Positions 20,596 through 43,600 of a stretch of 56,782 nucleotides of DNA are shown in pieces. Below the pieces are notes generated by a model, which saw nothing but the letters and a program-made list of their open reading frames with translations, was not told where the DNA came from and ran no database searches. This stretch comes from a virus. The stretch lies in the IMG/VR virus record IMGVR_UViG_3300042885_000612, positions 1 through 56,782 of that record, one strand, 5' to 3'. Position 1 is the stretch's first letter, and the number at the start of each line of letters is the position of its first letter. The translations under genes were made by a program, and so were the position numbers.

Positions 20596-23500
20596 TTATC
20601 TTAGATTTTGGAATTGTTCATCACTCTTAATTGCCTGAATAGGGTCATAGTTTTTACCTTTAATACCATACAAACTAAATAAATGATTCCATAGTTTATA
20701 ATCAAAGGTACCATCTTCATCTTTCATTTGCCAAGGGTAAGGTCCTACTTCAGATTTATAAACTGCTTTTTCATCACCAGTTGCTATGTAGTACAAATCT
20801 GCTAATATTTTCAAGTAAAGTTTAACAGTAGGTCCAAATGCTATAGATGTAACATTTCCATACTGTAACCATTCTTGAGGTGAAACAAAGGCAGCATTCT
20901 CTCTACGAACTGTTATAAGTTGATATAACATATGGTTTGATAACCAACCAAGTTTTCCAAACTCCTCTTCTCTCTGTCTCATTTTTTCAAATCTATCCTC
21001 ATCACCTTCATCATATCCATATAAGAACATAGTTGCAAGAGCCATGATCATAAGTAAGACACCTTCAGTAGCTATCTTCCTAAATGCAGCTTTTTCTTCA
21101 TCAGTCATTATAGGTAAATAAGCCATACCTGTTTTCAAGAATTTCATAGCACCTATAACCCCTGTTACATAGTATCCACGGGTAGTAGTTCCTAAATCCC
21201 AATTATATACATGACCCCATCTATTACCTTTAGACATATCAGCTTGAAATCTATTCAAGAACATTTGAGTTGCATACTTCTTATAGAAAGTAAATAATCT
21301 AAACAATAAAAACTGATCTGCTTGTGGAGAATCTAATTCTTCCATACCACCATTAGTTCTTTTAACAACACCTTGAATTTTTAATTTCATGTTGTTGAAC
21401 TTAGAGGCTTTAGAAATAATTATAGTATCTCCCGGTTGAAAACCATCAAGAGTTTTTACTTTATTTTTAGCTTGCAGTTCTTCTACAGTCATGTTATACT
21501 TTTTAGCTAAAGATTCAAATGTTTCACCTTCAGCAAAAGTATGTTCAATAGGATTAGGAGACCATTCAGGATCTATCCCATCTTTAAGTTTTAATTTTCT
21601 ATCTGCATCTAACTCAAATGCATCAATGTAATCTATTTGTTTTGGAGAACCATCTGGTTGTTTTTGTTCTACCTTTTGGAAGTACATCATACCACCAAAT
21701 ATCTGCAGAGATGCTTCAACATCCAAGAATCTTCTTGGGTCATACATCCATGAACCATCAAAGAAATCTTTAATAAAAGTTCTAGAACTTGATTTACCAA
21801 AGTCTTGTTTAGTTTTATCAGGAATAGGACTAAAGTTTTCAATTAATTGCATCTTCAATCCTTTAGGGCCCTTTGCATAGATATCTTTTTGCATTTCAAT
21901 CATAGCAGTAGCAGACCAAGCTCTACCTTTAGCAAATGCCATAGGGTTATAATAGGTAGCTGCAGCAGCTTCAATACTGTTTTGTATAACAGCACCAAAC
22001 CTGTTTTTCATAGCAGAAACCATATCCATTGCAATAAAGGATCTACTTGCATTCTTCATTAAGAAGTTTGCAGCTTTTGTAAGAATAGGGTTTTCTTGTT
22101 CAAATCCTGAATAAGCCTGACCATAGAAAGTTTTATCAATAAAATAATCCATTGCTTGAGCTCTTCTATTTGTATTAGCATTTAATAAAGCTAACTTACC
22201 TGTACTCTTATGGATATTCTTACTAAATGTATTTGTTTTTTTAATTGCATTACTTGGATCATTCATTACATCACTAATAGCTTTAGCAAGTGGTTCTTCT
22301 TTTATCAATGCATCTTGCTCATTAAGTGAATGCAAGTAAGTATAGAATGCTCTCAATACATCTTGAGATACAGATTCTTTTTTCAATCTATATAAACCTC
22401 TCACAGGTATTTTAGTAATTGGTTGACCTTGTAAATCTGTTTCAATTAACATGGCTTCTGAATCAACATTAAATCCAGGTTGTGTTTCTGGATCATCTGC
22501 AGACTTAGTAACAAATGATTTCATAAAATCACCTATACCAGATAGTTTACTTCCTAAATCATCTTTTGCTTTACCAGATTGTACAAGTTCAACATTTGTC
22601 CACTGTCTAAATCTAGCTAAATCTAAATACAATTTAGAACTTGCCGGCTTACCTTCTTGTACTTTTAAATATTCTTTCTTAATTGCATCAAGTAGTTTAA
22701 ACTCGGCACCATTTTTATCTAAAGCTTCATACTCAGGATTAATATATTTTTTATCAGTTGCATCTGCTCTAGGTAAGAAGTTACCTTTATTATCTATTTC
22801 AACACCAACTTTTAAATTAATATTACCAGTTGATGCATCATAACCAGTTCTCCATTCTTTTTTAATTCTTTGATTATAATATCTACCTGCAGGAACTCCT
22901 CTTATAACAATAGGTTCTCCTGTGGCAGCATCTTTAAGAACAGTAGTCTTATAATGTTTTATATCAGACGGTATTACATCTGTCCAAGCTTTAGTTCTAT
23001 AATACATCATTTCCCAAGCTTTAGTAGTAGGATTATAACCTACTTTTTGGTAATGATTTCTAAGGAACCATTCTCTAAACTTATCATTTTTTGACATTGC
23101 ATCATACAAATCTGCAGAGTTAACCCATGTATCAGCATTTTCTGTATTTATACTTTCAGATACTTCAGTATCACCAAGTGCTTCATAAAATGCAGCCATG
23201 TAATATTCAGTAGGAACTTTACTTGTAAGACCCTGAATTTCTCTGAGTATTTTTTTATACTCTTTCAGTATTAGTGGAGGCATACCAATGTTATTCTTAG
23301 TTGCAATAAGAGAGTTATATTCCAACATCTCATCATCAGTAAGAGTTTCACCATTGGCACTTCTTTCATCATAGGTTTTGAGTTTTACTAGATTCTCTTT
23401 ACTCAAACCACTTCCTGTATCAAACTGATCTTGAAGCTTAACAATCTCTTCTTCTAGATCTTTAATTTTTTCTAATACAGCATTAGTATATTGTAAGGCA

Positions 23501-26409: not shown

Positions 26410-29400
26410 TTAAAAAGGATATGCACAATTATTTTCTTGATCATCTTCAAAAGGATCAATAAAGTTATCATTAATTTCTGTTTCAGCAGCAGGCGGTGCA
26501 GGTAATTTAAACTCAATTTGCCAAGCTTTATCAAGTTTAGGTCTAACCTTTTCATTAAAATAAGATATTGACCAGCCTTCAAGTTGGCTCCAATCAGTTG
26601 GTGTTTTACCTGACCCCACTAATTTATGTAGTGGTCTTGTTACTTCTACATCTACAGTACGGCCATCATCAGATTTCCATGTAATAATATCTCCAACTTT
26701 GGCTTTTTTCCAGTATTCAATATTATCTGAAGTTTCATATCTTGTAGTAGCTGTTCTTTCACCCGTTAATATGGCATCAAATGTTGTATTAGCTATTACA
26801 CCAGCTCTTTTATTTTGACCATAAGCATAGGTCATTTGTCCTTCAAACTTTTTAATACCTGGAATTACTGTAGAAACTAATCCTCTTTTACCATTATTAT
26901 TTTTAGAATCAGCTACTCTAAATGTAAAGTTCATTCTCCAGTTAGATAAATTTAAACCACCATTAAAATATTTATTTACATTAGAGTTAGCAAGATTTAT
27001 GGTTCCTAAATCTGTCTGACCTGTTACATTAGTTACAGTATGTTGAACAAGTCTAGATTTACCACCAAAACTCATAACATCCCCACTCTTTAAATTAACA
27101 ACACCATCAGGAATACTATCTGCTGCAGGAGCATAACTTAATTTATCTCTTTTATTGTAAGTAAAATCAGCATCTGCTCCAATAGATACAGATATAATAT
27201 CTCTATCCATGTTTCTATAATCTTCAGTTATATCTTGATGCCAACCAAGTGTTCTACCTAATGGATATAAGTTAATTAGAACTGTATCATAGTCAGACAT
27301 ATCTTGACCTGTAACTTTTTCTAGTATACTTATAATATTATTTGGTATTGGAGCTATAGTAGTACCATCAAAATTAGTGAGGTAGTAATTATAATTCCAT
27401 CTTTTTTCTTTACTGTCTCTTCCTCCTAGGTTTTTCTTAATTTGAATGATTCCAGTATTATAATTTCCTGGTCTATCTACACCTTTTCCATTTTTATCAA
27501 CTACAAATTCAGGACTCCATTCCATTTTACCAGCAGAGGCCATAACATATTGTGCAAAAGGATTATAACCATTCTTTTCTAGAACTGTTTTACCAAATTG
27601 AAAGAATTGTTTTTGTTCTTCTTTAGTAAGAACACCTTTTTGTAAGATTAAACCATCTTCAATTTCTTGAGCATTTATTGGTTCAATAGGTTTTCTTTCT
27701 CCTGATATTGGTGGATTAGATGGTGGATTTAAATCATTGATATTAAATGTTCCTACAGTATCAAAATCTCCAGAGGCCGGATCATCAAAACTAGTAGGTT
27801 TTCCTGCAGCACTTCTATTAGTTGAAATATATACATAGTCAGTAGCTCTTGATACAGCAACATACTTTAATTGTCTTTCAACAGTTTGTGCTTGATCATC
27901 GGTAAGTCTTCTTCTATCTTTAATATATCCTACTAATCCTGTTATACTAGGATCATTTATAAATACTTTAGTATAAGTACCACCTTGAGATTTATGAATT
28001 GTATGAGCATAACCATAGTCTATTGCTTTTTTAATTTTAGACTTATCAGTTAAACCTTTTACGTCATTCATAAATAATACTTGTTTAGATAAATTAGAAG
28101 CTGCTTCAAAATATTTAGCTTTATCTTGTCCATAACCAGCAATCTTACCCATATAGTTTAACTTATGAATAGAATCTGCAAGTTTAGTAGATGCATCATC
28201 ATTACCTACAATATCTGGTATAAAGACTTCAAATGGTTTTGCTTCTGGATCCAATAGATTTTTAAGAGTTACATTGTATCCAGTAAAATTCAATTCTTCA
28301 AAACCGATATTTACAAATTTGTCTCCTTGTTTTTCATAATTAGTTATATAGACTTCTTTATTATCTTTCTTAAGTTGAGTAATCATATAATCTCCAGAGT
28401 TATATAATAAAGACTGGCCTGTTTTATAATCTCTACCAAAATTATCATACCCCATAAGAATTTCACCAACTACTAATTGTTCTTGATAGGTTTGAGGATA
28501 TAATATTTCTCTCGCTACTTTATTTAATCTAGCTACTTCAGGATTTGTTGCAGCTAACATTCTAAAATACAAATAGTTTTCTGAGTCTCTCATTTCATTA
28601 AGATTTTCAGCAAGTATTTGATTTTCTCTAGCTGTACTATTTATATATTCAACACCTTTTCCATTAATTTCTGCAGACTGATATGATAAAGAACCTCCAG
28701 ATCTTAGTGCAGTTGATTCTTTTAGTATAGGATTATCTCCTGTTCTTTCTACTTTAGTTAAAGTAATACTAGATGTGGGATTAGAAAATACTTTTGATGT
28801 CAAGCCTCCTTTATTTTGCACAGGACCTAACTGTCCTGGATCACCCATGTATATAACTTTAAGATCATACTTATCTTTTTGCTGACCTAAGAAATCATAT
28901 AATTCATCAGTAATCATAGAAGATTCATCTACAATAAGTATTTGACCTTTATCAATTTTTCCATTTCTATTATTAGCAAATTGTAAATCTCTTACGTCAT
29001 AATCCATTCCTTCAAAGTCTACTTCAGGACCAAATCCAAATAAGGAATGGAGAGTTAATACTTTAATTTTAGGATTCTTAAGTTTAGTAACAGCATTTGC
29101 TCTATGAGTTGGTGCAGTATATACTATATTAGGTCCAAACCATCCTTTATTCAACCATTTATCAAAGAGAGCCATGATTGAAGTTTTACCAGTTCCTGCA
29201 TATCCAATCAATGTAATTTCATTATTGAATTTTTTAGGATCATTATAGAATTCTTCAAGTTTTAACAGAGCTGCCTCTTGTTCTTTGTTTAATTTAAAAG
29301 GAGTTTCAATCTCATAACCATCAGCAAAAGTAAATGTATTACCTGTTGTTGGATCTGAGTTACCTGTATCATCATTATTTATTTCTTCATCACTTAAAAC

Positions 29401-32400
29401 TATTGGATCAGGTCCAGTACTTTGAGGATCTATATTTGGATTTTGATTAAAGTAAGCTAATAAAATTGCTTTTTTAGCCGGTTTCCCTTTATAGTTTAAT
29501 ACATCTATACCAAGTCCATTCTCTACAACAATATCATACATAGCACCATAGTACTTGTATTTAACTGTTGTACCATCTGATTTTTGTTTAGCCCCAAATG
29601 TTTGAGTATATACATCTCTGATGGCTTGTAATGATTTGTCTATTACTTCTTTTGTACTTAGTGTTCTACTTCCTATACCTGCAAAGTTTTTAGTAAGAGT
29701 TGGTGTATCAGTTTTTACAAAATTTTTAATTGAATAATCATACTTATACCATCCTTCTTTAGTACCATCAAATACATAAACAGGTTTACCTTCATTAATA
29801 GCCATTTGAACAGCATATCCTGTACCACCTTTAACAATAGGGACAGCAGCTATTCTTGTTTCACCAGCTTTATCAGATGCATTTTCACCAGGTTGTTTTA
29901 TAGTACCTAATGCAAATATGGCATCAGCATTTTTAACTTGTAACCAGTTACGAATAATATAGGCACTTCTTACTGATTTATTTTCAGAATCAGTATACAT
30001 CATTCTAAAAGCTTTTGTAGCTTTTTGTGCACCTTCATTATAGTCTTTTTGACTAATATGAGTAGGTTCAATACCAGCTGCTTGTAATTTTTTAGAATCT
30101 AATGTTTTACTTCCTTTAGCAGCTTCACCTTTTGTATCTACATAATCTAAAGGCTCTCTATAATGTTTATGATTAGTTACCCCAAACTCTCTACCTATTT
30201 GATCCCATTCAGTATCAGATAAAGCAGCACCACCCGAATGATTTGTAAAATCTTTAGGATCATTTACAGTTAAAGTAGGAGTTGTTGGTTTAATAGATGG
30301 TTGAGCACCTTCAGCTTTAGCCTCAATAACAAATGTATTATTACTTGTTGGCATGCTTGTATAGTTCTTAATTCTTAATTTATCTGCTGTAAGAACATCA
30401 ACAATATATTCAAGAGTATCTTCATTAAAATAGTATTTAGTGAATAAAGGACTAGCATTATTCATAACACTTAAGTATGAATCTTGAGGTAGTATTTCAT
30501 TAAAGCCATCAATTGAAGGACCTGAACCATGTTGGTAAGTTGCCATTAATTGAAGCATGTAAAATAATCTACTTATTTTTTCATTATCCTTAGTGTTTGC
30601 AATCTTTTGGATTTTTGGATTAGCTAGTTCTCTAATATTCTGAGCATATATATCAGCTTGAGCACCATCAAGTAAACCTTTATCATTTAAAGTTAATACA
30701 TTAAATTCATTAGAAAAAGCATATAAACTTAATTGGTTTACTACAGGATATTTAGAAAGTTCTGGAAACTGTTGAATAGATTCTAATAACTGATCTGTAA
30801 AAGAATATGTACCTCTTCTCAATATTACAGATGGATTATAAGTATTCAATAAAGCAATACTGTTAAGTTCTTCTTTAGTAAATCCTTTATTTTTTAAATA
30901 CTCTCTTTCTATAACATATCTATAGTAACTTGACTTAGATTCAAATACATCATCACCAACTTGGAATGCTTCAAGGCCTCTTGACTTGTAAGAGTTGTTA
31001 GAGCTACTGGTTACTAAGTAGTTTTTATTTTTAAAGTCAGCTTCAATTCTTTTTGGATTAACTCTAATAAGTTTCTTACCATCCTTCTCAGTTACTTCAA
31101 CATCTGTTTCAAGATTTTCATTAGTAACAACTTCAAAACCTTTGTAAGTATCCGGCACTAAAACAATCTCTCCATTAGAGTTTATATTGTTACTTAAGAA
31201 GTTTTGTAGTATAAATGTATTGATGGCATTTTTATACTCTTCAATAAACCTACTAATGTTGTCTGCTCCAAGACCACCATATCTTTCTTTGAGAGCTTCT
31301 GTTTTAGTATTGATAGTAGAAACAATCTGATCTAATACTTGCTTGCTATTTCTTAATGAAAACAATGGACTTATTACTTGAGTTATTATATCTTTATCTG
31401 CAAGAGCAGCAAGAATGCTGTCATTTCTTAATCTATCAAAAGTAGTTTTATCAACTTTACTGTAATCATTTAAGTATGCAATATTTAGATCTCTTAATAA
31501 AACCTCTTGTATAGTTTTAAATGTTTGAGTATCTGGTTTAGATAATCTTTTTACATTACCTAGACCCTTTAAATATTTTTCAATCTCAATAAAATGCAAG
31601 AATGCAGCCATTGAAAAATCAGAATATTTATCAGTATCATTTTTAGACTTAACTAATTGTTCAATTTTAGCTTTATCAAAATTACCAAAGCTATCTAAAT
31701 TATTATCACTTAATTGTACAGCTGAATTGTAAATTTCTTTATTTGAAACTCTTGGTTTACTGTATACTTTATTATTTTGTCTTCTATCTGCTTGCTGATA
31801 AAAATTGATTCTCATGACATCATTTGAATCAACATATTGTAAGAAGTCATTAATTTGATCTTTAATCACTTGATCATCAGTTCCTTTGAACTCTTGAGTC
31901 ATTAATTGTTTTCTACCATTAGGACCTAAACCATAGTAAGCTATTGATGCAGTATCAAAACTATAACCTGAGAATACAGCTTTATCAATAGTTCTTTTCA
32001 AGTAAGCATCTATAGCAGGACTTAATACTTCATTAGCTGCATTATATTGAGCAAACTGAGGTTCAGTAGGTGCAATACCCATTAGAGTTGCATATGGACT
32101 TTTCAATAGTCTTTGTTTATTTGCATACTCTCTAATAAGAGGAGTAGACACAAACATAACAGCATCTCTCACAGGTACACCAGCTTTTAATAAATACAGT
32201 AATACAGGAGATATTTCTAAGTTACCTTGAATATAAAAGATCCACTGATCTTTTTCAACGTCAACCCATCCATTCATACCTTGTGAAAACAAGTCAGCTA
32301 TTTTATTTACAGCATCAACAGAGTTTACATCTGCTAATGAAATTGTACCATCAGCATTTTTATTATGACGTAATAGTAATCTTGTTCTATAAGTTTCACC

Positions 32401-35400
32401 ATCCTTTATATCTTTATACTTATTGATTTTTGGATCAAATTCACTTTCCTGATAAGTCAATGGCATTTTAGCACCAATAGAATTTAATAAAGGACTAAAA
32501 GCATTCTCATTGGCACCAATACCAAGTACTGCTTTACCAATCATGTTACCATTAAACTTATCAATATTATATAAAGGTTCTAATGTAGTAGTAGGACTAA
32601 TTGCTTTTTTACCTTTTACAATTCTATATTCTTTGAATTTTCTATTTACTGTTTGGAATTTATCATAATCAACTACAACATCAGCTAATTCATCAGCAAT
32701 ATCTTTAAGCATGTAAGTATCATTTGGTCTTACAAGAGTTGCATAATTTTCTGGTAATTCAAGAATAGATCTGATACTAGTGATCAAGTCATTTTCCATT
32801 ACTTTTTTAGCTTGCTTGATTAAGGCCATTTTATCTTTACTGTCTGCTTCATTAATAGAATCAAGTAAAGCTTTTGCATTTTTATCTGAAGTATAAACAT
32901 TACCATCTTTATCTATGTTAGGCATGAATGTAGTAAGCTTATCAACGTCATAATCACCCCCTGATTTTGCTACTAGTTCTGTAGGAGGAATAATAATATT
33001 ACTTGCAGAAGGATCCAAGAACTCCCAAACTTCCATAAACTCCATAGAGTTAAGTCCTTGTACAGGAATCCTAACAGCAGTCATGGTAATAGCTTTACGG
33101 TTGTTATCTTTATTTAACCATTCATCTTGTTTGATCAGTTCATTAAGTCTTTCTCTTGTCTTAATTGGTTGACCATCTAAGTCATTTAAGTTTAATAAAT
33201 TGAAGAAGTCTCCTTGTAAAGCAATAGCAACTTTCATTGCATTTGTTTTACCATCCTCACCAGGATAATAGAAAGGTAGATTATTAGTACCCATATACTT
33301 TAATACATCTTCCTTAGATCCTGCTTTAAATTTATTTCCTGCAGTCCATAAACCATTTGTCATGGAACTTGCTACTTGAACTAAAGCTTCTCCTTTTAGT
33401 TTTTGTTTAACAAATCTATTTTCAGCAATTGATAATACAGTTCTTTCTATAGTTTGAGCATCAATAAAATTTGATAAGTCATACTTAAGTGAACCATCAG
33501 GATTTGTTTTTAATGCATCAAGAAGGTGACTTGGGTAATCTTTTTTAGCTAAATTGTCTTTGATTAATTTTAATAATTTAGCAGGCTTACCAACATATAC
33601 TCCATTCTCTTTTGTATAACCAATTTCAGTTAATAATTCTTCTTTTAATAATTTAGTATAAGAGTCAACCAATGAAGTGTATCCTTCTACTATATCTTTG
33701 TTAGCACCATTTACAAGTTCTCCTTTAATAAATAATCCTTCAAGAATTAATTTTCTTAACTGAGTTGAGAATATAACTTTACCTTTTAATTTACTAGGTA
33801 CACTGGTTACTTCTTTTAAGTACTCAACATTAATAGTATTTTTAGTAAAGTTTATTTTACTTTTTAATTTTTTATTATCTGAACCGGGCTCATAAATTTT
33901 ATCTAATTCACCATCAGATGTTACTGCACCTACCTTAGATCCACTACCAAATGTTGCATATTGAATGTTATTCCTTAGCATTTCTTTATGCAATACTTCA
34001 AGATCAGAACCCTTTACCCATGATGGAATTAAAGGTACCAAGGCAAACTTATGGAAAGCTGTAACTGGTAAAACTGTACCATTAGCAAAATCTTTTGTTT
34101 GTGCTACTAATGGACCAAAGTATTGTAATTTATATGGAGGAAAAAGTTCAATATATTCTGCTGGTGTAATCTCACTTCCTTTAATTACTTTTTGATATAG
34201 AACTTCTTGCTGATCTGACCAACGGTTTTGTAATTTTTTTAATGTTCTATATGCATCAACAGTAATATAACCTTGACCATCACCTTCTTTGATTTCATCT
34301 GCCGTATATTTAGCAATTTCTTTTGCTACTCTTTCTTCTATAAGTTTTTTAGCTTCTGCTGTTGGAAGTAAAGCATATCTTTTTGCATAATCTTTTTCAA
34401 GACCTTTTTTAATTATATCTAAGTATTCACTATCTCTAGTAATATCCTCCATGATGGCGGTATTAAATGTACCATTGTATTCAAAGTTTTGATACTCAGC
34501 AGGTAAAGTAGATGCATAAGTACTTTTTGCCCATAAAGCTTTATTATTTATAAATAATTGAGCAGCAGTATCAGTCCTAAATCTTGGACCATTTGAAATC
34601 AAACCAGAAGTTCTCTTATGTAATTCTTCTTTAAGATGATTATATTGAGATATGTCACCTAAGAATAATATCTGAGTCTCAACACTATGAATCCAATAAT
34701 TATACATGAAAGTCTTTGCAAGAACTTTTTCTTTTTCTGACTTAGTCAAATCACCAGGTACTTTATTATATAGTTTAGGATCTACATATTTACCTTCATT
34801 TAATCTGTTATAAACATCAGTACTTCTAGTAGTAAAATAACCTTTGATTTGTTTAATCAAACTAGATTTTAAATCAGGATCATTTTTAAGATAGTTTATT
34901 AAATCTATACCAGAGTTGTTTATTTTTTCTAATAAGTCTGATTTAGTTTTATCATCAAGTATACCTTCAAATATTGCATACTCTTCTCCAGCTCTCTTAC
35001 CTGAGTCAGTGACTTTTTGATTATACCCTATATAATTTTTTGCTTTTGGGTTTTCTTTGAATTTATTTATTCTTTCAAGTTCACCTGCAAGATATGGTAG
35101 GATAATTCTTTCAATTACTTCAGTCTCTTTATTGTTTGCAGTAAGGAAGTCATCTATATCTGCATATAGATGTTGTTCTTTATTCTTACCCATACCTTTT
35201 ACATCAATAGGGAAACCTCCACGTAAGATGAATCCAAATGAAGAGGATTTAGAACCTGGTCTTAAAAACTCTAAATAACCTGACTTAAGAAATGTATGAA
35301 AATCTTGTAAGAATTTACCCTGGCCATCTAAACTTGTAGTTGATGTTCCTGATAAAAATACATCATTTAATGTAAGCTGTGTACCAGCCACCATAATAAT

Positions 35401-38400
35401 TTCTAAAAATCTGTCAGTTCTTCTTTTATTACTTGGCTCAAATAAAGCTTTCATTATTTGGGACCTGTTAGTAAATGCATTAACTGCAGGGTTAAATGAA
35501 TTTAATAATCTATACTGTGTTTTTGTCCACATATCAGATTTATTACTTACTTGATTTATTGCATCAGCTATTACTGTTGCTGTGTTATCATCAGTATGTA
35601 AATTAACTCTGTTTCTTTCAGGATTTAATACACTAAAATTAGATCCGGTTTTACCGTATTTACTTTGTAATGTAAGCAGTCTATCAACAATAGTCTTTTG
35701 TGAAAGCCCATTTTTGTATAAAGAAGAATCTTTCTGACCCAATACATTTTCAGGTATACCACTTCTTAATACCCTCAATGGACTCATTCTAAACTTATTT
35801 ATTAATTCTCTTCCTTCTTTAGATAAGTTAGGATCTAAACTAGCTTCATGTACTAATTTGATTGTTTCAAATATTCTTGGTATATAATAATACTTTCTAT
35901 TATTGAAATCTTTTAATTCATCTTTAATAGCAGTAAGATCATCAAAATAGAATCCAATGGATGTAAGAAACTTAAATGCTTTATCTTCATCAAGAATTAA
36001 ATTTGCACTATTTTTATTTCTAAAATTTTGCAATACAGCATTTAAATTAAGTCTGGATATATTATTATCTTTTTCAATGTATGAATCATTTTTATCTGAC
36101 CGGAACTTAGCCTCAAATATCTTTAAAGTTTTACTTACATCTATACCAGCATCTGTTACTTCAGTTGAGAATTCTACACCATCATCAAAAGCTAACAATT
36201 GAATATATGGTACTTTTGGTCTACTAAAATCAGTAAAGAATGAAGTAGTAATATCAAACTCAGAAGAAGATTGATTTACTTGATTTGGTAAAGGCAACTT
36301 ATAATCTATTAACTGTTGTAGTTCTGGAGAAAACTTGGCAGCATTTACAAGTGCATCATATATTTTTTGAGGATCTTTTGCACTATTGGTGGCTCTTACA
36401 ACGGCATTCCATACTGTTCTAAAATCAGCTAATTGTTTATTACCAAATCTATCATATACATTAACATAACCAGTTCCTTTCTTTTCTTTCTTAAAGAGAC
36501 TTTTTAATATATATACAGTCTCTTTATTAGCCATTTCCTGTAATGTAAACTCTCCAATTTGTTTATCCCCAGTCCTAGTTTCATTAGCTCTTGTAGTATC
36601 TAATGATGAGTTTGTACTTGGGTCTTCTTCAAGTAAGATATATTTTTGTTTAATTATATCAAAGGTTGAGTTATTTTCATGATGAGCAATAATAGAATCC
36701 CAGTGTTTAAGTGCTGTTTCATAGATTCTAATGTTATCTAATTTAAGTTGTTGCTCTGGAGTAAATAATCTTGCAGCAACTCTATCTTCATTAAATTTAA
36801 TTGATTGTATTGAAGGTGCCTTTTGTTCGTTAGTAATAGGATCAATTTCAATATAATTTTTAAATTGATCTTCAGCTTCTTGTCTACTATCAACAATTAT
36901 TATACTTGCTCCTCTTCCTTTTCTATCTTTAATTAAATCATGTTCAAAGTAATCTGCTACAATTTCAATATTGTCTTTGTATAGTTTTCCTTTCTCTCTT
37001 TCTCCAAGTTTAGTATCAGCTGTTAGATTTTTAAAACTTTCAACTTGACCTCTTAAGAAAATATATTTATGATCACCTTTTTTACTTCTTATTACAGCAA
37101 AGGCATTTGAATCTAATTGATCTAAAGTGGTATAGGTATCAAACTTAGCATCTTTAATAAGAAGTTCTTTTTGCCATTGTTTAATATCTTCTATGAACTT
37201 CTTTCTAACCTTATCATAAGCAAGACCTTTATTATAGGAATCAGTTAAGATTTTTACAGTTCCTGATTTTTTATTATAAAATTTAGAACTTTCATCAATG
37301 ATTTCAGATAGTACAGAATCAATGGTATTTGCAAGAGCTCTACCATCTTGTTCATTCAGTACTTCAACTTTTATATTTTTACCCTTAGAATTCTTTTCTT
37401 CTGTTTTTACAACCACTCCTCTATCAAGTTCATCCCATTTTAAATTATCTACGGATGGAGAAAATTTATTTAATACATTATCATTATTGAAATAAAGAGC
37501 TTCAAACAATTCATTAACCATTCCTATTTCCATTATATTTGGATCAATGATATCTTTTGGAGATACCTTACCGAATAATTGTTTTAGGAAGTTTAATATT
37601 TTTCTAAATAATGTATTTCTAACAGGTTGACTTTTAACAGGTTTAGGATTTCTTGCATACTCTCTAAAGTTTTCTGCTAGTCTTTCTTCTATTTCAAAGA
37701 AGGACATATCCTTGTATGCAGGATCTGAATTTCTAAACTCTGTATATAATTTAACTCTTTGTTCATTAGTCATGAATAACTGAGAAAATACGTGCCAAGC
37801 TTCATGATAAACATCTACATAGTTCCCACCATTACGGGGATTTAAAGCAATAACTCCAAGTTTACCTGGCTGTAATTTGTAATCAGCATAACCTAAAAGC
37901 CATGCTCCTTTAGCAATAAATTTTGCATATACATCAGAGTTAACTAAATCTGCTGCTACACTGAGTTCAATGTATTTATTTAAAAGCTTACCAGAAGATG
38001 AATTCTCCCACCAATCTTTTGCATTATTTAATTGCTCTTGAGTAATTCCTGATTGACTCAGCCATGTTTTTCTATCAAGAACAAACCCCGGATCCTCATC
38101 AAGTATTCTACCTATACTACCTTTACCAGGTTCAATAGGAGTTATTGGAATATCTTTACTCTCACCTACTTCAGATTGTGTATCTGTTATATCATCAAGT
38201 TCTTCTTCTTCTTTAGCTTCCTCTATTGCTTCAGTATTTAATGGTACAGGTTGTCTTGATGGTTCATTATATTCTTTACTACGGAATGAGTCTTGTAAGA
38301 ATCCAAAGTCATATCTTCTACCTTCAAAATCTCTTACACCTACAATAGTATTAGGATATCCCATACCATCTTGTACTTCAATATCTCTAAGTATTAAACT

Positions 38401-40629
38401 TATCTCATCTCCAACTTTAGCACTAGTATCTACAACTCTATACAATCTAAAAGTTCCTTCTTGACCTTCAATTGTAATATCAATACTTCTATAATTACCT
38501 GTAGGTGTCTGTGTTATCTTTCCTAATTCAGTAACTGTTGCTTTTAAACTTGGATTTTGATCAGGAGAATTTTTTAATATATCTACTAACTCATTATACT
38601 TCTTACGTATTTCTGAAGGCTCTCCTTTTATTTCATTCTCATCTTTAATTTGATCAATAGATTCTGAAAATGCATTTGGAATTGCAAAAATCATGTAGCT
38701 ATTAAACAAAGGAATTGATTTAGATTTTCCTAATACAATTTTAGCATCCATTGTTGGAAGTAATCCTGTTTTATAGGAACCTACACTGAACATATATTCT
38801 CCAGGTTTATTTGGATCTTCTATATAATCAAAATAAGTACCGTCTTGCAGTAAACCTTTATCGTATTTAATTTTAGCTGGATAATATCTTCCCACTTCAG
38901 GAATACCGTTCTTATCCAATACAATTTTATTATTCTCTTTTTTTAAAGTTCCTTTACCTTTCAAAAGAACTTCAATAATTTTTGCTTCAGCTGCAGGGCC
39001 TCCAGTTAAATCAACTTCCAACCATGTATTTGCAGCTTTTGGATTTGTTTTTTTAATTTCTTTAAACTGAGCATTTATATATGTTCTATATAAAAATCTT
39101 AATTTTTTTTGGTCAGCATCATACTTTATAAAATGTCTTCTAACATCTTCATCTAATGCGTTATCTAAAAACTGTTGAACAAAGTCCAACTTACTTGTAA
39201 TACTTAGATCTTTAGAAGTAAGCACCTTAGCTATTTTTGTAGCCAGATCAGTTGATATATCTGGTCTGTCAACTTCAAATACTTCTCCATTAATTTGAAC
39301 AGCTGATGTATTAGCTTTAAGTGTTCTATCTTCAGTAATATAATCAGTATCTAATAATGTAATTGATTGTAGTATAGCTTCAGCTTGTTCAGGAGTAAAG
39401 GATCTTAAGTTATTGATGTTCATAGTTCCTGGTCTAACTCTACCATTTCTAACACCATTACTTACATCAACAAGTGGTAAAAATATTTGTCTATTAGCTG
39501 GCATTCCAATTAAGGACTGTCTAAAATCATAATACTCTTTAAACTTTGCTTGTCTTTCTTCTTCAATTTGATTTACAAAATCTGAGAACTTAACACCTTC
39601 AGATTTTTCAAACATATCAATGGATTTATAACCCATTTGTTTTACTCTTGCTTGAGCAGTTTGAGCAGAACCAAGGATCATATCCTCTCTACCATATATA
39701 TCTGTAACTCTATACTCACCACCTTTCTCTAATCTAACATCTCTTAGCATTTGATAAACAGGTTTACCTCCATTTTCTTTAGGAGTAACAACACCTGCTT
39801 CATTAAAATAAAGTATCTGACCTTTTTCATTTGTAAGAACAACCATGAATTGTTCAGTAACCGGTTTTACTTCACCTTGATCTTTAGCTTTACCAGATTG
39901 AAATGTATTTATTCTTTGTTTAAGATCTTTTGTCTTTTGATATAGTAAGTCTTGAGGAAATGCATTAAGAGACCAAACTCTAAGTTTAACCTTGTTATCA
40001 TCCATTACTATAGTATCTAAGGCAGTTCCACCAGAAGTTAACTTTCTAAGTCTATCTAGTGTATTATATACAGTAGTTTTAGCAGGATCTACATTCTCTA
40101 TTGTTTCATCAACTTTTAAATTAGGATCCATTTCTAAAAACTCTTCCCAGGTAGTTGATATAGCATTGTCAACTAAAACTTTTAATCTCTTATCAGTAAA
40201 TTTTTCTATTGGAGGTTCTTCAGCAATTGGTGGCCCATCATTCTCAACAGGATTATTTAACTCTGCATCTGCAAGTAGTTTTAGAGTAGATGCATCAATT
40301 GTCTTACCAAAAAAATTTAATAAAGATTGAACTCCAGAATCTTCATTTCTGAATTCTTTATTTAACTTAAATAGATCATTAATAGCAAAATCTTCAATGA
40401 GCTCAGTGCTTTCTTTAAAAGCAATTTGACCAACTAAAAATGGCATCTGTTGCATATAAGATAAGGCAACTTCTTGACCTTGTGCTTTATTTAATTTATC
40501 ATATAACTGATTCATTAAAACTCTGGCATCATAGGCTTTATTCTCTGCTTGGTATGATTCAATATCTTTATATATAACAGCAGCAAGTTTTAGTAAATGT
40601 TCTTTACTAAGAGCACAAGTAATTTTCAT
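26410..40629 (-). CDS. Giant multi-domain virion RNA polymerase fused to helicase, AlkB and ASCH domains
   Basis: A 4739-residue protein, one uninterrupted frame. Seen domains: zincin HEAWH (942-946) with ERLAENFREY as possible third ligand; RNA polymerase double-barrel core, with FHKFALVPLIPSW near 2190 and GGDYDVDKL (Asp2559/2561/2563); SLOG-like fold at about 3455-3665 (SGGAALSD, RNWLQVKNADAIFALG, GGTGYAVQMA, FAGIGSRT); SF1 helicase at about 3775-4280 (GYAGTGKTS, VDESSM, YMGDPGQLGPV, HTIHKSQGG, YVAVSRATD); AlkB-type dioxygenase at about 4310-4590 (His4464, Asp4466, His4530, Arg4565, Asn4567, Arg4571); ASCH domain at the end. The polymerase matches the crAss-like virion enzyme that makes early mRNA after injection. 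It overlaps the preceding stop by one base (TAATG). Confidence 0.9.
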   Translation of the reverse strand: MKITCALSKEHLLKLAAVIYKDIESYQAENKAYDARVLMNQLYDKLNKAQGQEVALSYMQQMPFLVGQIAFKESTELIEDFAINDLFKLNKEFRNEDSGVQSLLNFFGKTIDASTLKLLADAELNNPVENDGPPIAEEPPIEKFTDKRLKVLVDNAISTTWEEFLEMDPNLKVDETIENVDPAKTTVYNTLDRLRKLTSGGTALDTIVMDDNKVKLRVWSLNAFPQDLLYQKTKDLKQRINTFQSGKAKDQGEVKPVTEQFMVVLTNEKGQILYFNEAGVVTPKENGGKPVYQMLRDVRLEKGGEYRVTDIYGREDMILGSAQTAQARVKQMGYKSIDMFEKSEGVKFSDFVNQIEEERQAKFKEYYDFRQSLIGMPANRQIFLPLVDVSNGVRNGRVRPGTMNINNLRSFTPEQAEAILQSITLLDTDYITEDRTLKANTSAVQINGEVFEVDRPDISTDLATKIAKVLTSKDLSITSKLDFVQQFLDNALDEDVRRHFIKYDADQKKLRFLYRTYINAQFKEIKKTNPKAANTWLEVDLTGGPAAEAKIIEVLLKGKGTLKKENNKIVLDKNGIPEVGRYYPAKIKYDKGLLQDGTYFDYIEDPNKPGEYMFSVGSYKTGLLPTMDAKIVLGKSKSIPLFNSYMIFAIPNAFSESIDQIKDENEIKGEPSEIRKKYNELVDILKNSPDQNPSLKATVTELGKITQTPTGNYRSIDITIEGQEGTFRLYRVVDTSAKVGDEISLILRDIEVQDGMGYPNTIVGVRDFEGRRYDFGFLQDSFRSKEYNEPSRQPVPLNTEAIEEAKEEEELDDITDTQSEVGESKDIPITPIEPGKGSIGRILDEDPGFVLDRKTWLSQSGITQEQLNNAKDWWENSSSGKLLNKYIELSVAADLVNSDVYAKFIAKGAWLLGYADYKLQPGKLGVIALNPRNGGNYVDVYHEAWHVFSQLFMTNEQRVKLYTEFRNSDPAYKDMSFFEIEERLAENFREYARNPKPVKSQPVRNTLFRKILNFLKQLFGKVSPKDIIDPNIMEIGMVNELFEALYFNNDNVLNKFSPSVDNLKWDELDRGVVVKTEEKNSKGKNIKVEVLNEQDGRALANTIDSVLSEIIDESSKFYNKKSGTVKILTDSYNKGLAYDKVRKKFIEDIKQWQKELLIKDAKFDTYTTLDQLDSNAFAVIRSKKGDHKYIFLRGQVESFKNLTADTKLGEREKGKLYKDNIEIVADYFEHDLIKDRKGRGASIIIVDSRQEAEDQFKNYIEIDPITNEQKAPSIQSIKFNEDRVAARLFTPEQQLKLDNIRIYETALKHWDSIIAHHENNSTFDIIKQKYILLEEDPSTNSSLDTTRANETRTGDKQIGEFTLQEMANKETVYILKSLFKKEKKGTGYVNVYDRFGNKQLADFRTVWNAVVRATNSAKDPQKIYDALVNAAKFSPELQQLIDYKLPLPNQVNQSSSEFDITTSFFTDFSRPKVPYIQLLAFDDGVEFSTEVTDAGIDVSKTLKIFEAKFRSDKNDSYIEKDNNISRLNLNAVLQNFRNKNSANLILDEDKAFKFLTSIGFYFDDLTAIKDELKDFNNRKYYYIPRIFETIKLVHEASLDPNLSKEGRELINKFRMSPLRVLRSGIPENVLGQKDSSLYKNGLSQKTIVDRLLTLQSKYGKTGSNFSVLNPERNRVNLHTDDNTATVIADAINQVSNKSDMWTKTQYRLLNSFNPAVNAFTNRSQIMKALFEPSNKRRTDRFLEIIMVAGTQLTLNDVFLSGTSTTSLDGQGKFLQDFHTFLKSGYLEFLRPGSKSSSFGFILRGGFPIDVKGMGKNKEQHLYADIDDFLTANNKETEVIERIILPYLAGELERINKFKENPKAKNYIGYNQKVTDSGKRAGEEYAIFEGILDDKTKSDLLEKINNSGIDLINYLKNDPDLKSSLIKQIKGYFTTRSTDVYNRLNEGKYVDPKLYNKVPGDLTKSEKEKVLAKTFMYNYWIHSVETQILFLGDISQYNHLKEELHKRTSGLISNGPRFRTDTAAQLFINNKALWAKSTYASTLPAEYQNFEYNGTFNTAIMEDITRDSEYLDIIKKGLEKDYAKRYALLPTAEAKKLIEERVAKEIAKYTADEIKEGDGQGYITVDAYRTLKKLQNRWSDQQEVLYQKVIKGSEITPAEYIELFPPYKLQYFGPLVAQTKDFANGTVLPVTAFHKFALVPLIPSWVKGSDLEVLHKEMLRNNIQYATFGSGSKVGAVTSDGELDKIYEPGSDNKKLKSKINFTKNTINVEYLKEVTSVPSKLKGKVIFSTQLRKLILEGLFIKGELVNGANKDIVEGYTSLVDSYTKLLKEELLTEIGYTKENGVYVGKPAKLLKLIKDNLAKKDYPSHLLDALKTNPDGSLKYDLSNFIDAQTIERTVLSIAENRFVKQKLKGEALVQVASSMTNGLWTAGNKFKAGSKEDVLKYMGTNNLPFYYPGEDGKTNAMKVAIALQGDFFNLLNLNDLDGQPIKTRERLNELIKQDEWLNKDNNRKAITMTAVRIPVQGLNSMEFMEVWEFLDPSASNIIIPPTELVAKSGGDYDVDKLTTFMPNIDKDGNVYTSDKNAKALLDSINEADSKDKMALIKQAKKVMENDLITSIRSILELPENYATLVRPNDTYMLKDIADELADVVVDYDKFQTVNRKFKEYRIVKGKKAISPTTTLEPLYNIDKFNGNMIGKAVLGIGANENAFSPLLNSIGAKMPLTYQESEFDPKINKYKDIKDGETYRTRLLLRHNKNADGTISLADVNSVDAVNKIADLFSQGMNGWVDVEKDQWIFYIQGNLEISPVLLYLLKAGVPVRDAVMFVSTPLIREYANKQRLLKSPYATLMGIAPTEPQFAQYNAANEVLSPAIDAYLKRTIDKAVFSGYSFDTASIAYYGLGPNGRKQLMTQEFKGTDDQVIKDQINDFLQYVDSNDVMRINFYQQADRRQNNKVYSKPRVSNKEIYNSAVQLSDNNLDSFGNFDKAKIEQLVKSKNDTDKYSDFSMAAFLHFIEIEKYLKGLGNVKRLSKPDTQTFKTIQEVLLRDLNIAYLNDYSKVDKTTFDRLRNDSILAALADKDIITQVISPLFSLRNSKQVLDQIVSTINTKTEALKERYGGLGADNISRFIEEYKNAINTFILQNFLSNNINSNGEIVLVPDTYKGFEVVTNENLETDVEVTEKDGKKLIRVNPKRIEADFKNKNYLVTSSSNNSYKSRGLEAFQVGDDVFESKSSYYRYVIEREYLKNKGFTKEELNSIALLNTYNPSVILRRGTYSFTDQLLESIQQFPELSKYPVVNQLSLYAFSNEFNVLTLNDKGLLDGAQADIYAQNIRELANPKIQKIANTKDNEKISRLFYMLQLMATYQHGSGPSIDGFNEILPQDSYLSVMNNASPLFTKYYFNEDTLEYIVDVLTADKLRIKNYTSMPTSNNTFVIEAKAEGAQPSIKPTTPTLTVNDPKDFTNHSGGAALSDTEWDQIGREFGVTNHKHYREPLDYVDTKGEAAKGSKTLDSKKLQAAGIEPTHISQKDYNEGAQKATKAFRMMYTDSENKSVRSAYIIRNWLQVKNADAIFALGTIKQPGENASDKAGETRIAAVPIVKGGTGYAVQMAINEGKPVYVFDGTKEGWYKYDYSIKNFVKTDTPTLTKNFAGIGSRTLSTKEVIDKSLQAIRDVYTQTFGAKQKSDGTTVKYKYYGAMYDIVVENGLGIDVLNYKGKPAKKAILLAYFNQNPNIDPQSTGPDPIVLSDEEINNDDTGNSDPTTGNTFTFADGYEIETPFKLNKEQEAALLKLEEFYNDPKKFNNEITLIGYAGTGKTSIMALFDKWLNKGWFGPNIVYTAPTHRANAVTKLKNPKIKVLTLHSLFGFGPEVDFEGMDYDVRDLQFANNRNGKIDKGQILIVDESSMITDELYDFLGQQKDKYDLKVIYMGDPGQLGPVQNKGGLTSKVFSNPTSSITLTKVERTGDNPILKESTALRSGGSLSYQSAEINGKGVEYINSTARENQILAENLNEMRDSENYLYFRMLAATNPEVARLNKVAREILYPQTYQEQLVVGEILMGYDNFGRDYKTGQSLLYNSGDYMITQLKKDNKEVYITNYEKQGDKFVNIGFEELNFTGYNVTLKNLLDPEAKPFEVFIPDIVGNDDASTKLADSIHKLNYMGKIAGYGQDKAKYFEAASNLSKQVLFMNDVKGLTDKSKIKKAIDYGYAHTIHKSQGGTYTKVFINDPSITGLVGYIKDRRRLTDDQAQTVERQLKYVAVSRATDYVYISTNRSAAGKPTSFDDPASGDFDTVGTFNINDLNPPSNPPISGERKPIEPINAQEIEDGLILQKGVLTKEEQKQFFQFGKTVLEKNGYNPFAQYVMASAGKMEWSPEFVVDKNGKGVDRPGNYNTGIIQIKKNLGGRDSKEKRWNYNYYLTNFDGTTIAPIPNNIISILEKVTGQDMSDYDTVLINLYPLGRTLGWHQDITEDYRNMDRDIISVSIGADADFTYNKRDKLSYAPAADSIPDGVVNLKSGDVMSFGGKSRLVQHTVTNVTGQTDLGTINLANSNVNKYFNGGLNLSNWRMNFTFRVADSKNNNGKRGLVSTVIPGIKKFEGQMTYAYGQNKRAGVIANTTFDAILTGERTATTRYETSDNIEYWKKAKVGDIITWKSDDGRTVDVEVTRPLHKLVGSGKTPTDWSQLEGWSISYFNEKVRPKLDKAWQIEFKLPAPPAAETEINDNFIDPFEDDQENNCAYPF

Positions 40630-43600
40630 TATTCACAAACATTAGTTTCTAATAAATCATTCTCTAAATCATCCATTGATTTATTTTTAATTGAATCTTT
40701 AACTGCATCTAAGTCATCTGTAGTAATTGAATTAGCTGCATCTAATGAAGATTTAATTACATTTTTATCTTCTGTAGATAGAACTACTGGTTCTTCTTGT
40801 GGGATGTTTGACATGTTATCAAGAGTTGTATTATTAGTTAATTCTTCAAAGGTAAGATTTTCTGTTTCACCTCCCAACACTTTATATACTGTAACTCCAT
40901 TTTCATTAACAGATTCTATAAAGAGTGAATTTCCTGGTTCTGCAAAAATTTCCTTATTAATAAATATAGCATTTTTTACGATAAATCTATCACCTTTTGA
41001 AATATTATTTTCATTATATGTAATAGTTGCTGTATTAGTTTGTAATGCTTCAGTTCTCTGATCAATAAGATCTGATAGTTGATCTAACTCATCTACTGTT
41101 AAAGTATAGTCAGTAATTACATCATAGATCTTATTTAATTCAATAAGATCATTAGCAGCTTCTACCATATCTGAAAGAGTTTTAAATCCTTCAGTTTTAA
41201 CAGCAGGTTGTCCACTAGGGGCTTCTTCTATATCACTAAGACTAAATGATCCTACAGTGTCACCCATATCATCTTTAGCATCTTGGATTTCTTTATTAGT
41301 TTCTTCAATTCTAGTTTGAATTCTTTGTTGAGCAGGAGTACCACCTGTTTTTGGTTTAGGTGCATCAGGTGCATTTTTATCAGACAAAGGACTTTCATAA
41401 AATGCATCAGCAGCAACTGGTTCTAATAACTCTTGCAAGTATCTTAATTGATCATTATACTTTTTATGGGCAGCAACTAATTCTTCTAATCTATCTCTTT
41501 CAACTTGAATGACTTCATCAGTAAACTCAACATCATCCATGGATTTATTAACTTTATCTACAAGAGTGTCAAATTGTTTTTTAAGTTGAGGATATCTATC
41601 TAGTGTAGATACATCATTTGGATCTAAAGAATCAATCAATGCTCTAATTTCATCAGCTGATAATTCTTGGAAACCGGTATCTTTTCTGAATCTATCAAGT
41701 TTAGTATTATATTTATTAAAGATTTTTAAATACTCTTGAAGATATTCTAATGATTTTCTAATTGCATTTCTTAAGATATTTATTAATTTTTCAATTGTAG
41801 ATATCTTACGTTTAACCTTAACAATCTTTTGATTAATCTCAGACTTATTAATAAGTCTCATTGATGGATCAGTTTTTAGATTATTGTAATAATTAATCTG
41901 ATTAGTCAAATCTTTTTTAATCTCTTCAAGTTGTCTTATTTCATCTTGTACTTTTCTAACAGTATTTAAAATAAACTGAGCTTCTTTAAATGTAATTTTA
42001 CGTGCTTTCTCTTTAGTTTCCTTTTCATACTGACCAGCTCTGGCTTTAATCTTTTCTCCCCTTTTTACTTGTTTAGCAGATTTTAATTTATTAGCTAACT
42101 CATACAAACTATTAGCACTATTCATTAATGCTTCAAATTCAAGACCAGCTATTTCAACAGATGAGTCTAACATATTTTGTAAAAAACCAAGAGTATCTTG
42201 AAGTTCTCCTAAACTTTTGTCATTTTCAAGAGCTCTACTTTCTAGAATACTTATTCTTCTATTTAATATATCAATGTTTCTTTGTCTGGTTTCTTTTTCA
42301 GATTCAGTAAGAGCTTTACTTACTTCATCTAAGACAGCTTTTCCTGTAGCAGATTCAGCATCATCACCCACTTGATTCTCTTGTTCTTGTTGTGCTAATT
42401 GAATTAGTTTAAAGTTTATATCAGCTACAAATTCTTGACTGATTGCTAATTCTCTCTCTGTAAGTTCAATACCTCTAGATATTTTATAGGTGATATCATC
42501 TAGTCTACTTTGTGATACATTTCTATTATCAACAAAATCTTGAAATTCTTCATCACTTACTTCTTGTAATGGAGTTGTAGCAGGTTCAGCAGGAACAAAT
42601 TCTTTTCTTGGAATCAATGTATCAACTTTTTCTTGAATTGTTTCATCACCATATGCAGTATTAGGATCTAATACAATTAAATTTTCACCTAACTGTACTG
42701 GAGACGTAGCATATTTTGCAGTAAGTATTTTACCTCCAATTGGTAGACCTGTTTTTTCATCTAAGTCAACATTTGGATCTGATTCAATTTCAATAGGTAA
42801 TAAATAAACTTTTGGCATAATGCCGGTCATGTTATAAAACATGTTTGCATATGCTGTTTGTTGTAATAAATAAGTTTCCTTTTTAGAATAAGGATTAGCG
42901 GCATCATGAAAGCCAGACCACTTATCTTTATTACCTGATTTAATATCTACTATAGACACAGCACCTTCTCTATCAACTATTAATAAGTCAATCTCTCCAG
43001 CAATTTTAGAATCTTTATCAAATAACTTAATGTTATTAGCATAGATTTTTATTTCACCATTGTCCTGTCTAGTTTTTAATTTAGCAAGTACTGAATTAGG
43101 TCCAAAGATTGCATCAAAAGCAGCTTTATCAATCTTAGTTTCATCAAACTGAGCTTCACCTTCATCAAGGAATTTTCTTATTTCAGCATCTAAATAGTTA
43201 CCTCCTATTCTACTTTCTTCATATGTAAGTTCAGAGATCTGTTCTTTTAAATAATTTTTTAGTTCATCAGCAGATAATTTTTTAGCTTTAGGATCTTCTG
43301 GCTCAATAACTTGTTTTAAATTTCTGGCAAGTACTTTATATACATACTTACTCATACCATCTGTACCTATAGGTAATCTTGTTTTAAGAGCTGCTATAAA
43401 GTCATCAACTGATTTTCCTTGGCCGATTGTTTTATTGAACTCAGCTAAAACTATATTGATATTCTTATAGTTATATGCATCTTTCTTAAGTGATTCAATA
43501 GCAGTGGTAACACGGGTATATAAATCATCATCAATTACATACTTACTATTGTTGCTAGTTTTAGTTATACCATCTTGGAACCTTAAGATCTCTCTATTGA

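Follow-up and report, generated by a model that had tools for sequence, protein, structure and literature searches.

How a phage can send several very large proteins through its narrow tail in a set order is the question raised by a stretch of viral DNA of 56,782 bases (IMG/VR virus record IMGVR_UViG_3300042885_000612, hereafter the window), which is probably a fragment of a phage genome. Its minus strand encodes, in a single open reading frame (ORF) running from 40629 to 26410, a giant protein of 4739 amino acids (plus the stop codon) in which the core of a crAss-like virion RNA polymerase (RNAP) is followed by a tail of other enzyme domains. This RNAP giant sits between two giants read in the same direction, P0003 (2447 amino acids) before it and P0002 (1934 amino acids) after it, here called the first and the third giant. 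Crassviruses have been described as the human gut viruses of highest abundance, and in the same source the orderly exit of several megadaltons of protein through the tail is covered by a hypothetical model (PMC10172136). The three giants of the window carry cysteine solely at the ends that face one another, and this junction-specific rule would provide a simple, testable chemical answer to ordered protein ejection. It is fairly probable that the window encodes a giant with a cassette slot whose end cysteines couple three packaged giants by disulfides, a reading in which we infer the disulfides, the packaging, the order of threading and the functions of the cassettes.

Cysteines at the facing ends of giant proteins

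In the window, the first giant (40629..47972) has its single cysteine at the C-terminal end (Cys2446, codon 40635..40637), the RNAP giant (26410..40629) has exactly two, one at each end (Cys5, 40615..40617; Cys4735, 26425..26427), and the third giant (20596..26400) has its single cysteine at the N-terminal end (Cys5, 26386..26388), all on the minus strand. Cys5 of the RNAP giant is invariant in the window giant and four relatives. At the cysteine content of the other window ORFs (0.86%), about 21, 41 and 17 cysteines would be expected in the first, RNAP and third giant, respectively. The two terminal cysteines of the RNAP giant are absent from an earlier, sequence-only reading of the same DNA, as is a HEAWH motif at residue 942 that is discussed below.

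The same arrangement is found in metagenomic relatives. A profile of the RNAP core gave 217 of them, of which 80 were kept; after exclusion of three that were open at the 3' end, the remaining 77 fell into 59 clusters, each with one representative, among them a sister contig of the window (IMG/VR, 120,701 bases). The 5' end is complete in 55 of the 59. Among these RNAP giants with complete ends (sister contig included), 53 of 55 have a cysteine in the first 6 and in the last 8 residues and 47 of 55 have no other, the internal cysteines totalling 7 in 203,829 residues. Of 52 upstream pieces, 51 have a cysteine among their last 9 residues, and all 40 complete downstream ORFs have one at the N-terminal end. 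By comparison, 200 control ORFs of 150-1199 amino acids (sister contig plus stretches of 13 named phages; cysteine content 1.17%) show a cysteine in residues 2-6 in 4 cases and in the last 8 residues in 17. The two RNAP giants that miss the rule, L030 and L078, look frame-broken: in L030 the residues MVNCSL are encoded in a different frame just ahead of the open one, probably owing to a frameshift, and L078 is a 1226-residue fragment behind a frame break, its 2190-residue upstream piece being the sole upstream miss. The N-terminal ends of the RNAP giants in this clade share M-x(0-3)-C, and the sequences around the C-terminal cysteine vary widely (KKSC, RKYTC, DPFKC, KICK, NNCAYPF), so that this cysteine does not belong to a single conserved motif. 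Further junctions arise where a piece of 242-655 amino acids is split off after the RNAP, as seen at seven of 24 loci viewed (L028, L030, L032, L039, L041, L067 and L076); all seven pieces have a cysteine at residue 3 and as the last residue, and the giant after each of them begins with a cysteine. An eighth piece, in L077 (396 amino acids), has cysteines at residues 3 and 395 and is followed by an unrelated-looking ORF of 197 amino acids (L077:14884-15519), which contains three cysteines, interrupts the row of giants and may be a mobile endonuclease.

A similar situation is also present in named phages, where a cysteine lies on both facing ends, at most 6 residues from the start and at most 9 from the end, at all 25 junctions read in 19 phages. 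Two junctions each come from crAss001, phi14:2, cr126_1, cr116_1, DAC17 and cr111_1, and one each from p-crAss, cr118_1, cr50_1, cr272_1, cr114_1, cr109_1, Fpv3, Rudgehvirus, crAss002, cr1_1, cr11_1, cr3_1 and Lbo-JY46; Fpv3 and Lbo-JY46 are counted although their records do not class them in Crassvirales. One of the 25 was included after its start codon had been re-called, as the annotated start of the crAss002 RNAP (L116:13088) seems to lie 32 codons too early and an inner start gives MSC. The cysteine rule is thus of help in annotation, having flagged this likely wrong start codon as well as the frame breaks described above. Two phages were excluded from the count: cr10_1, with a cysteine 10 residues from the end and the downstream side not read, and cr130_1, whose RNAP is cut at the 5' end and which would fit, with a cysteine 4 residues from the end and C5 in the third giant. 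In Lbo-JY46 (L101), the capsid protein of which is the nearest isolate match of that of the sister contig, the adjacent giants a and b (1552 and 2748 amino acids) have one cysteine each, at the C-terminal end of a and at the N-terminal end of b.

As read from predicted proteins, these data establish the cysteine rule and show that it follows the junctions. In Steigviridae with three giants, the facing ends bear cysteines, and in crAss001, DAC17 and cr116_1 the rule holds with the first giant on the other strand; because it holds across strands, an overlap of stop and start codons was rejected as the source of the terminal cysteines. Five Intestiviridae with a fusion of the RNAP and the third giant (p-crAss, Rudgehvirus, crAss002, cr11_1 and cr3_1; the fusion is a GenBank annotation for p-crAss gp44 and is judged from length and the missing third giant for the other four) have no cysteine at the C-terminal end of the RNAP and retain only the pair between the first giant and the RNAP. 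Conversely, apparent fusions of the first giant and the RNAP (cr118_1, cr10_1, cr1_1, cr114_1, cr109_1 and Fpv3) have no cysteine at the N-terminal end; their DxDxD motif lies at 3210-3446 in the first five and at 3117 in Fpv3, as against 1362 in phi14:2, the first giant of which has 1797 amino acids. The outer ends are likewise devoid of cysteine, at the N-terminus in 11 of 11 complete named first giants and at the C-terminus in 15 of 15 named third giants.

A proposed disulfide-linked chain and competing explanations

In the mechanism proposed here, facing ends of the giants would form head-to-tail disulfides in the virion, giving one chain of 9,120 residues in which the first giant, the RNAP and the third giant are joined by two bonds. 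This chain would pass through the tail in an unfolded state, with the order and ratio of its members fixed, and would come apart into separate enzymes once reduced in the host cytoplasm. Internal cysteines would have been lost, also from the enzymes borrowed for the tail, to prevent wrong links; couplers that come and go with the junctions would allow fission and fusion of ORFs to be tolerated; and a cassette slot before the last coupler of the RNAP would let the phage change the enzymes it injects. With slightly less assurance than for the window itself, it can be considered probable that crassviruses in general package their transcription proteins as such a covalent, ordered and reversible disulfide train, with internal cysteines nearly purged in the clade of the window. 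The sequence-only reading had proposed that the activities of the RNAP giant, if packaged, would enter the cell in fixed ratio with the polymerase; as the terminal cysteines point to a single chain in which three giants would move together, this idea may extend beyond what was then proposed.

Known phages lend plausibility to several of these steps. According to PMC10172136, three giant proteins are present in phiCrAss001 virions, disulfides occur between tail proteins of the same virion, and cargo is expected to unfold partly when passing constrictions under 50 Å; in phi14:2, three giants are annotated from tandem mass spectrometry of virions (GenBank notes). The RNAP of Cellulophaga phage phi14:2 (6vr4; gp077 in KC821624, g066 in NC_021806) resembles that of the window in its homologous DxDxD core, in being the middle one of three adjacent giants and in having cysteines only at residues 3 and 2179 of 2180, and differs in its length (2180 vs 4739 amino acids) and in having no HExxH. 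Similarly, gp47, gp50 and gp49 of phiCrAss001 (262.5, 276.9 and 154.5 kDa; PMC10172136) are three RNAP-associated giants with cysteines at the facing ends, although gp47 is encoded on the opposite strand and gp50 has one internal cysteine. The giant ejected protein gp96 of phage P23-45 also contains a virion two-barrel RNAP but is fused to the tape measure protein, and its description is without the words cysteine or disulfide (PMC10770324). The word cysteine does not appear in the main text of PMC10172136, where disulfides are discussed for gp57 and the tail. In the literature searched, which did not extend to the principal structural study of the phi14:2 RNAP, the end-to-end cysteine rule was found nowhere; for crAss-like phages and cysteine, none of the matches listed had a fitting title or abstract start, and one uses cysteine as a culture reagent. 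Within this literature, the end-to-end cysteine rule and the coupling reading are the new part of the finding.

Several points weigh against a disulfide chain. Both the bond in the virion and the packaging of the giants of this phage are inferred rather than observed, and giants are made in a reducing cytoplasm, many of the hosts being anaerobes. In phmmer searches, none of six first and seven third giants matched any of 13 RNAP giants with an E-value below 0.01, and the fused state in Suoliviridae and Fpv3 therefore rests on motif positions. In cr116_1 the RNAP consists of two ORFs around an ORF of 215 amino acids (L113:17732-18379), and the first part ends in a cysteine while the second does not start with one; the two parts were taken, as a judgement call, for a single gene interrupted by an insert, and the split would break the rule if it were counted. 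The first giant of cr126_1 is a 395-residue end piece only. Moreover, internal cysteines persist in the RNAPs of p-crAssphage (7), cr10_1 (6), cr130_1 (25 in a cut protein of 5437 amino acids) and cr272_1 (38 in a cut protein of 4999 amino acids), and in cr272_1 they are near background, making the terminal cysteines weaker evidence there; purging of internal cysteines is true of the window clade and not of every crassvirus. Finally, terminal cysteines without an obvious partner are found at the cargo-1 position in p-crAss gp47 (L110), crAss002 gp30 (L116) and Rudgehvirus g49 (L115).

Among the competing explanations, the one that survives best, albeit an unlikely one, is that the RNAP giant is a polyprotein cut by its own zincin-like domain, which would free the tail enzymes. 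The candidate domain is a region recognized by motif only (residues 850-1080; 37390..38082, minus strand) and without a Pfam match in the window giant; the five residues of its HEAWH (942-946) are invariant in the window giant and four relatives, and the region is conserved in many more. By eye, stretches rich in Pro, Asp and Thr separate the domains of the giant, and peptidases in polyvalent proteins have been discussed as releasing other domains (PMC5512222). Against this stands that no cleavage site or product is known and that the protease activity is predicted from the motif; in any case, cleavage would be compatible with a disulfide train if it acted after entry. HExxH motifs also occur near the C-terminal end of the first giant in crAss001 (2157/2341), crAss002 (1814/2020) and cr3_1 (1796/2057), as compared to position 942 of the RNAP giant in the window, and judged by these positions the gene break between giants may shift relative to the domains. 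As HExxH is present in some third giants too, the correspondence of these motifs among giants is tentative.

The two other explanations of the cysteines themselves are more doubtful. Terminal cysteines might dock the giants by jointly binding a metal ion or through a non-covalent pocket, keeping them in order with no covalent chain, which would give an identical pairing pattern; however, the C-terminal ends are diverse and show no constant second ligand by eye, and the disulfides between tail proteins of the phiCrAss001 virion argue in the same direction, so docking appears improbable, somewhat more so than cleavage of a polyprotein. Still less credit can be given to the view that each cysteine tethers its giant end to another virion component, such as the portal or an ejection protein. 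The terminal cysteines of cargo-1 proteins in some phages would suit a tether, but outer ends and fused ends without cysteine are not what this model predicts. Lone cysteines at the cargo-1 position are C-terminal in the three Intestiviridae and N-terminal in Fpv3 (L114 c1) and Lbo-JY46 (L101 gene e).

The polymerase core and its variable tail

The core of the RNAP giant (residues 1950-2900; 31930..34782, minus strand) contains GGDYDVDKL, starting at residue 2557, with the catalytic DxDxD (DYDVD) at residues 2559-2563 (32941-32955, minus strand). A profile of this region from the window giant and four relatives matches 6vr4, a DNA-dependent RNA polymerase, in collinear pieces with an E-value of 6.4e-21, the second-best PDB match having 0.17; with the window giant alone, without relatives, 6vr4 was not found. 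By this match, the core is that of a crAss-like virion RNA polymerase, as the sequence-only reading had proposed from the motif, and packaging of the window protein is suggested by its relatives. The terminase of the sister contig is 24-27% identical over 85-90% to crass-like terminases. Its capsid protein has two matches only, Leptolyngbya phage Lbo-JY46 (28.6%) and one unannotated gut contig, with no named Crassvirales among them and with the cyanophage as the better of the two; the phage may therefore belong either within Crassvirales or beside it. RNAPs of crassviruses can reach about 6000 amino acids (PMC10136315), and giants of the transcription block have been described as large and multidomain (PMC7886860). 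The RNAP giant alone is thus a variant of an already known type, and what is new lies in the cysteine rule and the coupling reading rather than in the domain fusion.

The tail comprises four further domains, all on the minus strand. A Dda/RecD2-like SF1 helicase (residues 3775-4290; 27760..29307) is clear from profiles (AAA_30, 5.8e-21; UvrD_C_2, 3e-7; the Dda-like phrog_325, 3.2e-72) and motifs (Walker A at 3809, DESSM at 3901), with scores under the NCBIfam equivalog cut-offs. It is followed by an AlkB-type 2OG-Fe(II) dioxygenase (residues 4399-4571; 26917..27435), which matches 2OG-FeII_Oxy_2 (PF13532) at an E-value of 2.6e-20 (73.9 bits vs a cut-off of 31.2) and shows the HxD...H pattern (HQD at 4464, QHTV at 4529 with H4530); its score is far below the NCBIfam AlkB equivalog cut-offs, so that the domain is not AlkB in the strict sense. 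Ahead of the helicase lies a SLOG (cpYpsA-like) cassette (residues 3455-3715; 29485..30267). Here PF12694 is unmatched in a Pfam scan of the window giant and the sister contig, a profile gave only chance-like PDB matches (best E 0.096) and Foldseek on the model reached only E 0.13. Nevertheless, counterparts 45-47% identical are found in the tails of three relatives, PF12694 is above cut-off in the tails of five, and the predicted structure (predicted local distance difference test, pLDDT, 76) aligns with 3imk at Z 9.5 over 141 residues with a root-mean-square deviation of 3.9, the next match scoring 5.0. The structure 3imk belongs to the cpYpsA-type SLOG family, and a cpYpsA-like SLOG fold in the window giant is supported by this predicted model. 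The last domain (residues 4584-4728; 26446..26880) is homologous to parts of the cr272_1 and cr114_1 giants, and its identity as ASCH is plausible: PF04266 is unmatched in the sister contig, a profile including the cr272_1 homologue reaches YqfB (1te7) weakly at E 0.076, third in the list, and a single-sequence AlphaFold2 model has a pLDDT of 37, too low for fold comparison. Among the viral_contigs, relatives of this domain were found in the sister contig only. By eye, it sits inserted within the SLOG domain in cr272_1 (L105), and its two halves stand in swapped order in cr114_1 (L106). The helicase, AlkB and SLOG domains of the window contain no cysteine, and two stand-alone AlkB proteins of relatives have one each. 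Hence, among the tail domains that the sequence-only reading had named from motifs, helicase and AlkB are upheld by profiles and SLOG by fold and not by Pfam, ASCH being plausible only.

To that reading, no member with an intact helicase, AlkB and ASCH in one polypeptide was known to have been described. This needs to be narrowed, as two giants of Suoliviridae, cr118_1 QOR58373.1 (4946 amino acids) and cr50_1 QOR58058.1, have the RNAP region and a C-terminal SF1 helicase in one coding sequence; they differ from the window giant in that they are annotated 'DNA helicase' and, for cr118_1, in that Pfam finds no AlkB. The window helicase matches that of cr50_1 at 3e-82 and that of cr118_1 at 9e-35. 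Other gut giants have also been named after side domains, such as 'DprA-like' (cr130_1, cr109_1) or 'DUF1768' (cr126_1). What stands is that no paper joining crAss-like phages, RNAP, helicase and AlkB was found in the literature searched. With several unrelated enzyme domains predicted in one chain, the window giant is a putative polyvalent protein. Members of this group have been described as large, multidomain and probably injected, and their domains include peptidases, ART and helicases (Iyer et al. 2017, PMC5512222); in contrast to the window, the main text of that paper is without the words AlkB, ASCH, crAss and SLOG.

Comparison of the 59 representatives shows, from predicted domains, that the tail after about residue 3458 is a cassette slot filled with different enzymes across the clade. 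The giants extend 546 to 2542 residues past the core match, and since about 600 of these are conserved RNAP, tails span from none to about 1900 amino acids. In a Pfam scan of 35 of the 59 tails (L052 and the 23 shortest omitted), helicase was found in 7, AlkB in 9, of which 6 exceed the cut-off, cpYpsA in 5, NADAR in 4, an AAA_33 kinase in 2, and ART-PolyVal and DUF7831 over cut-off in one each, with no Pfam match at E 0.05 in 7. On a tree of the 59 cores, the minimum number of changes is 3 for helicase, 9 for AlkB, 4 for NADAR and 5 for cpYpsA, when unscanned tails are scored as lacking the domains and the sub-cut-off AlkB rows and L046 (sub-cut-off cpYpsA) as present. In particular, L060 and L061 share 97.8% identity over residues 1-3224 and 97.4% over their 193 C-terminal residues, and what sets them apart is an insert of about 168 residues that contains the cpYpsA match; the pairs L058/L084 and L012/L017 look similar. 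The cassette slot thereby shows how phages vary the enzymes that would be injected at minute zero.

These data also bear on the view, derived from the sequence-only reading, that the RNAP bears its helicase and AlkB as an obligate module for transcription. The helicase profile PF13604 was matched in 7 of 31 records, always within the giant and with no separate helicase gene elsewhere in the 31, several of which are fragments, as such a module would have it; AlkB occurs in 6 of the 31, five times within the giant and twice as its own gene. However, 24 of the 31 records are unmatched by PF13604, partly because they are fragments, and similar cores carry other tails or nearly none, so that the domains are likelier passengers, and an obligate module seems quite improbable. 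The broader idea of a toolkit delivered at infection fits the giants in the virions of phiCrAss001 and phi14:2, yet not as a fixed, transcription-coupled machine, given that relatives swap or lack the tail.

As for the passengers themselves, possible roles are the clearing of R-loops or loading onto incoming DNA for the helicase and the reversal of base methylation or alkylation damage for AlkB, and NADAR, SLOG and ART domains suggest work on molecules derived from nicotinamide adenine dinucleotide (NAD). In a 2022 survey, viral SLOG and NADAR were proposed to counter host ADP-ribose signalling, and fusions of SLOG and SF1 helicase were reported (PMC9503650). The SLOG domain is also carried by N4-like (Schitoviridae) RNAPs, namely those of Klebsiella phage Pylas (about residues 984-1158 of 3819, 38.4%, E 4e-31) and Alteromonas phage PT15-A5 (40.6%, 2e-15), where it lies near residue 1000-1150 and not in a C-terminal slot as in the window (L103:14998-15528, L104:14989-15330). 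N4-like virion RNAPs belong to a different, T7-like polymerase family. The occurrence of this passenger on giant phage RNAPs of two types supports its delivery with the polymerase and would point to an early function common to both, perhaps directed at immune signals derived from NAD. Both N4-like proteins, annotated as virion RNAP or RNAP, have no cysteine in 3819 and 3495 amino acids, respectively; an N4-like RNAP is a single protein and hence would need no couplers.

Reading frame and neighbouring genes

The uninterrupted frame of 4739 codons that the sequence-only reading had described is confirmed on the minus strand, the plus-strand reading of 26410-40629 being riddled with stops. That separate genes were fused by an assembly or frame artefact is next to impossible, and a chimera was rejected, as the frame recurs in the 120.7-kb sister contig with 1 mismatch in 34,217 bases against the window and relatives from other samples have the same core with long tails in a single frame. 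A search for near-identity among GenBank phages gave no match to the window.

The flanking giants carry recognizable domains of their own. The first giant contains a PD-(D/E)XK nuclease domain (42915-43316, minus strand; PF12705 at 7e-5, phrog_298 at 7e-10), and the third a LysM domain (21415-21543, minus strand; profile match with an E-value of 3.3e-6) as well as HExxH at residue 189. The next protein upstream of the first giant (47979..51182, minus strand) has 1067 amino acids and no cysteine, and corresponds, by gene order only, to the cargo position of phiCrAss001 gp45/gp46. In the sister contig, two more large proteins (1498 and 1370 amino acids; L094:9626-18234) are likewise free of cysteine.

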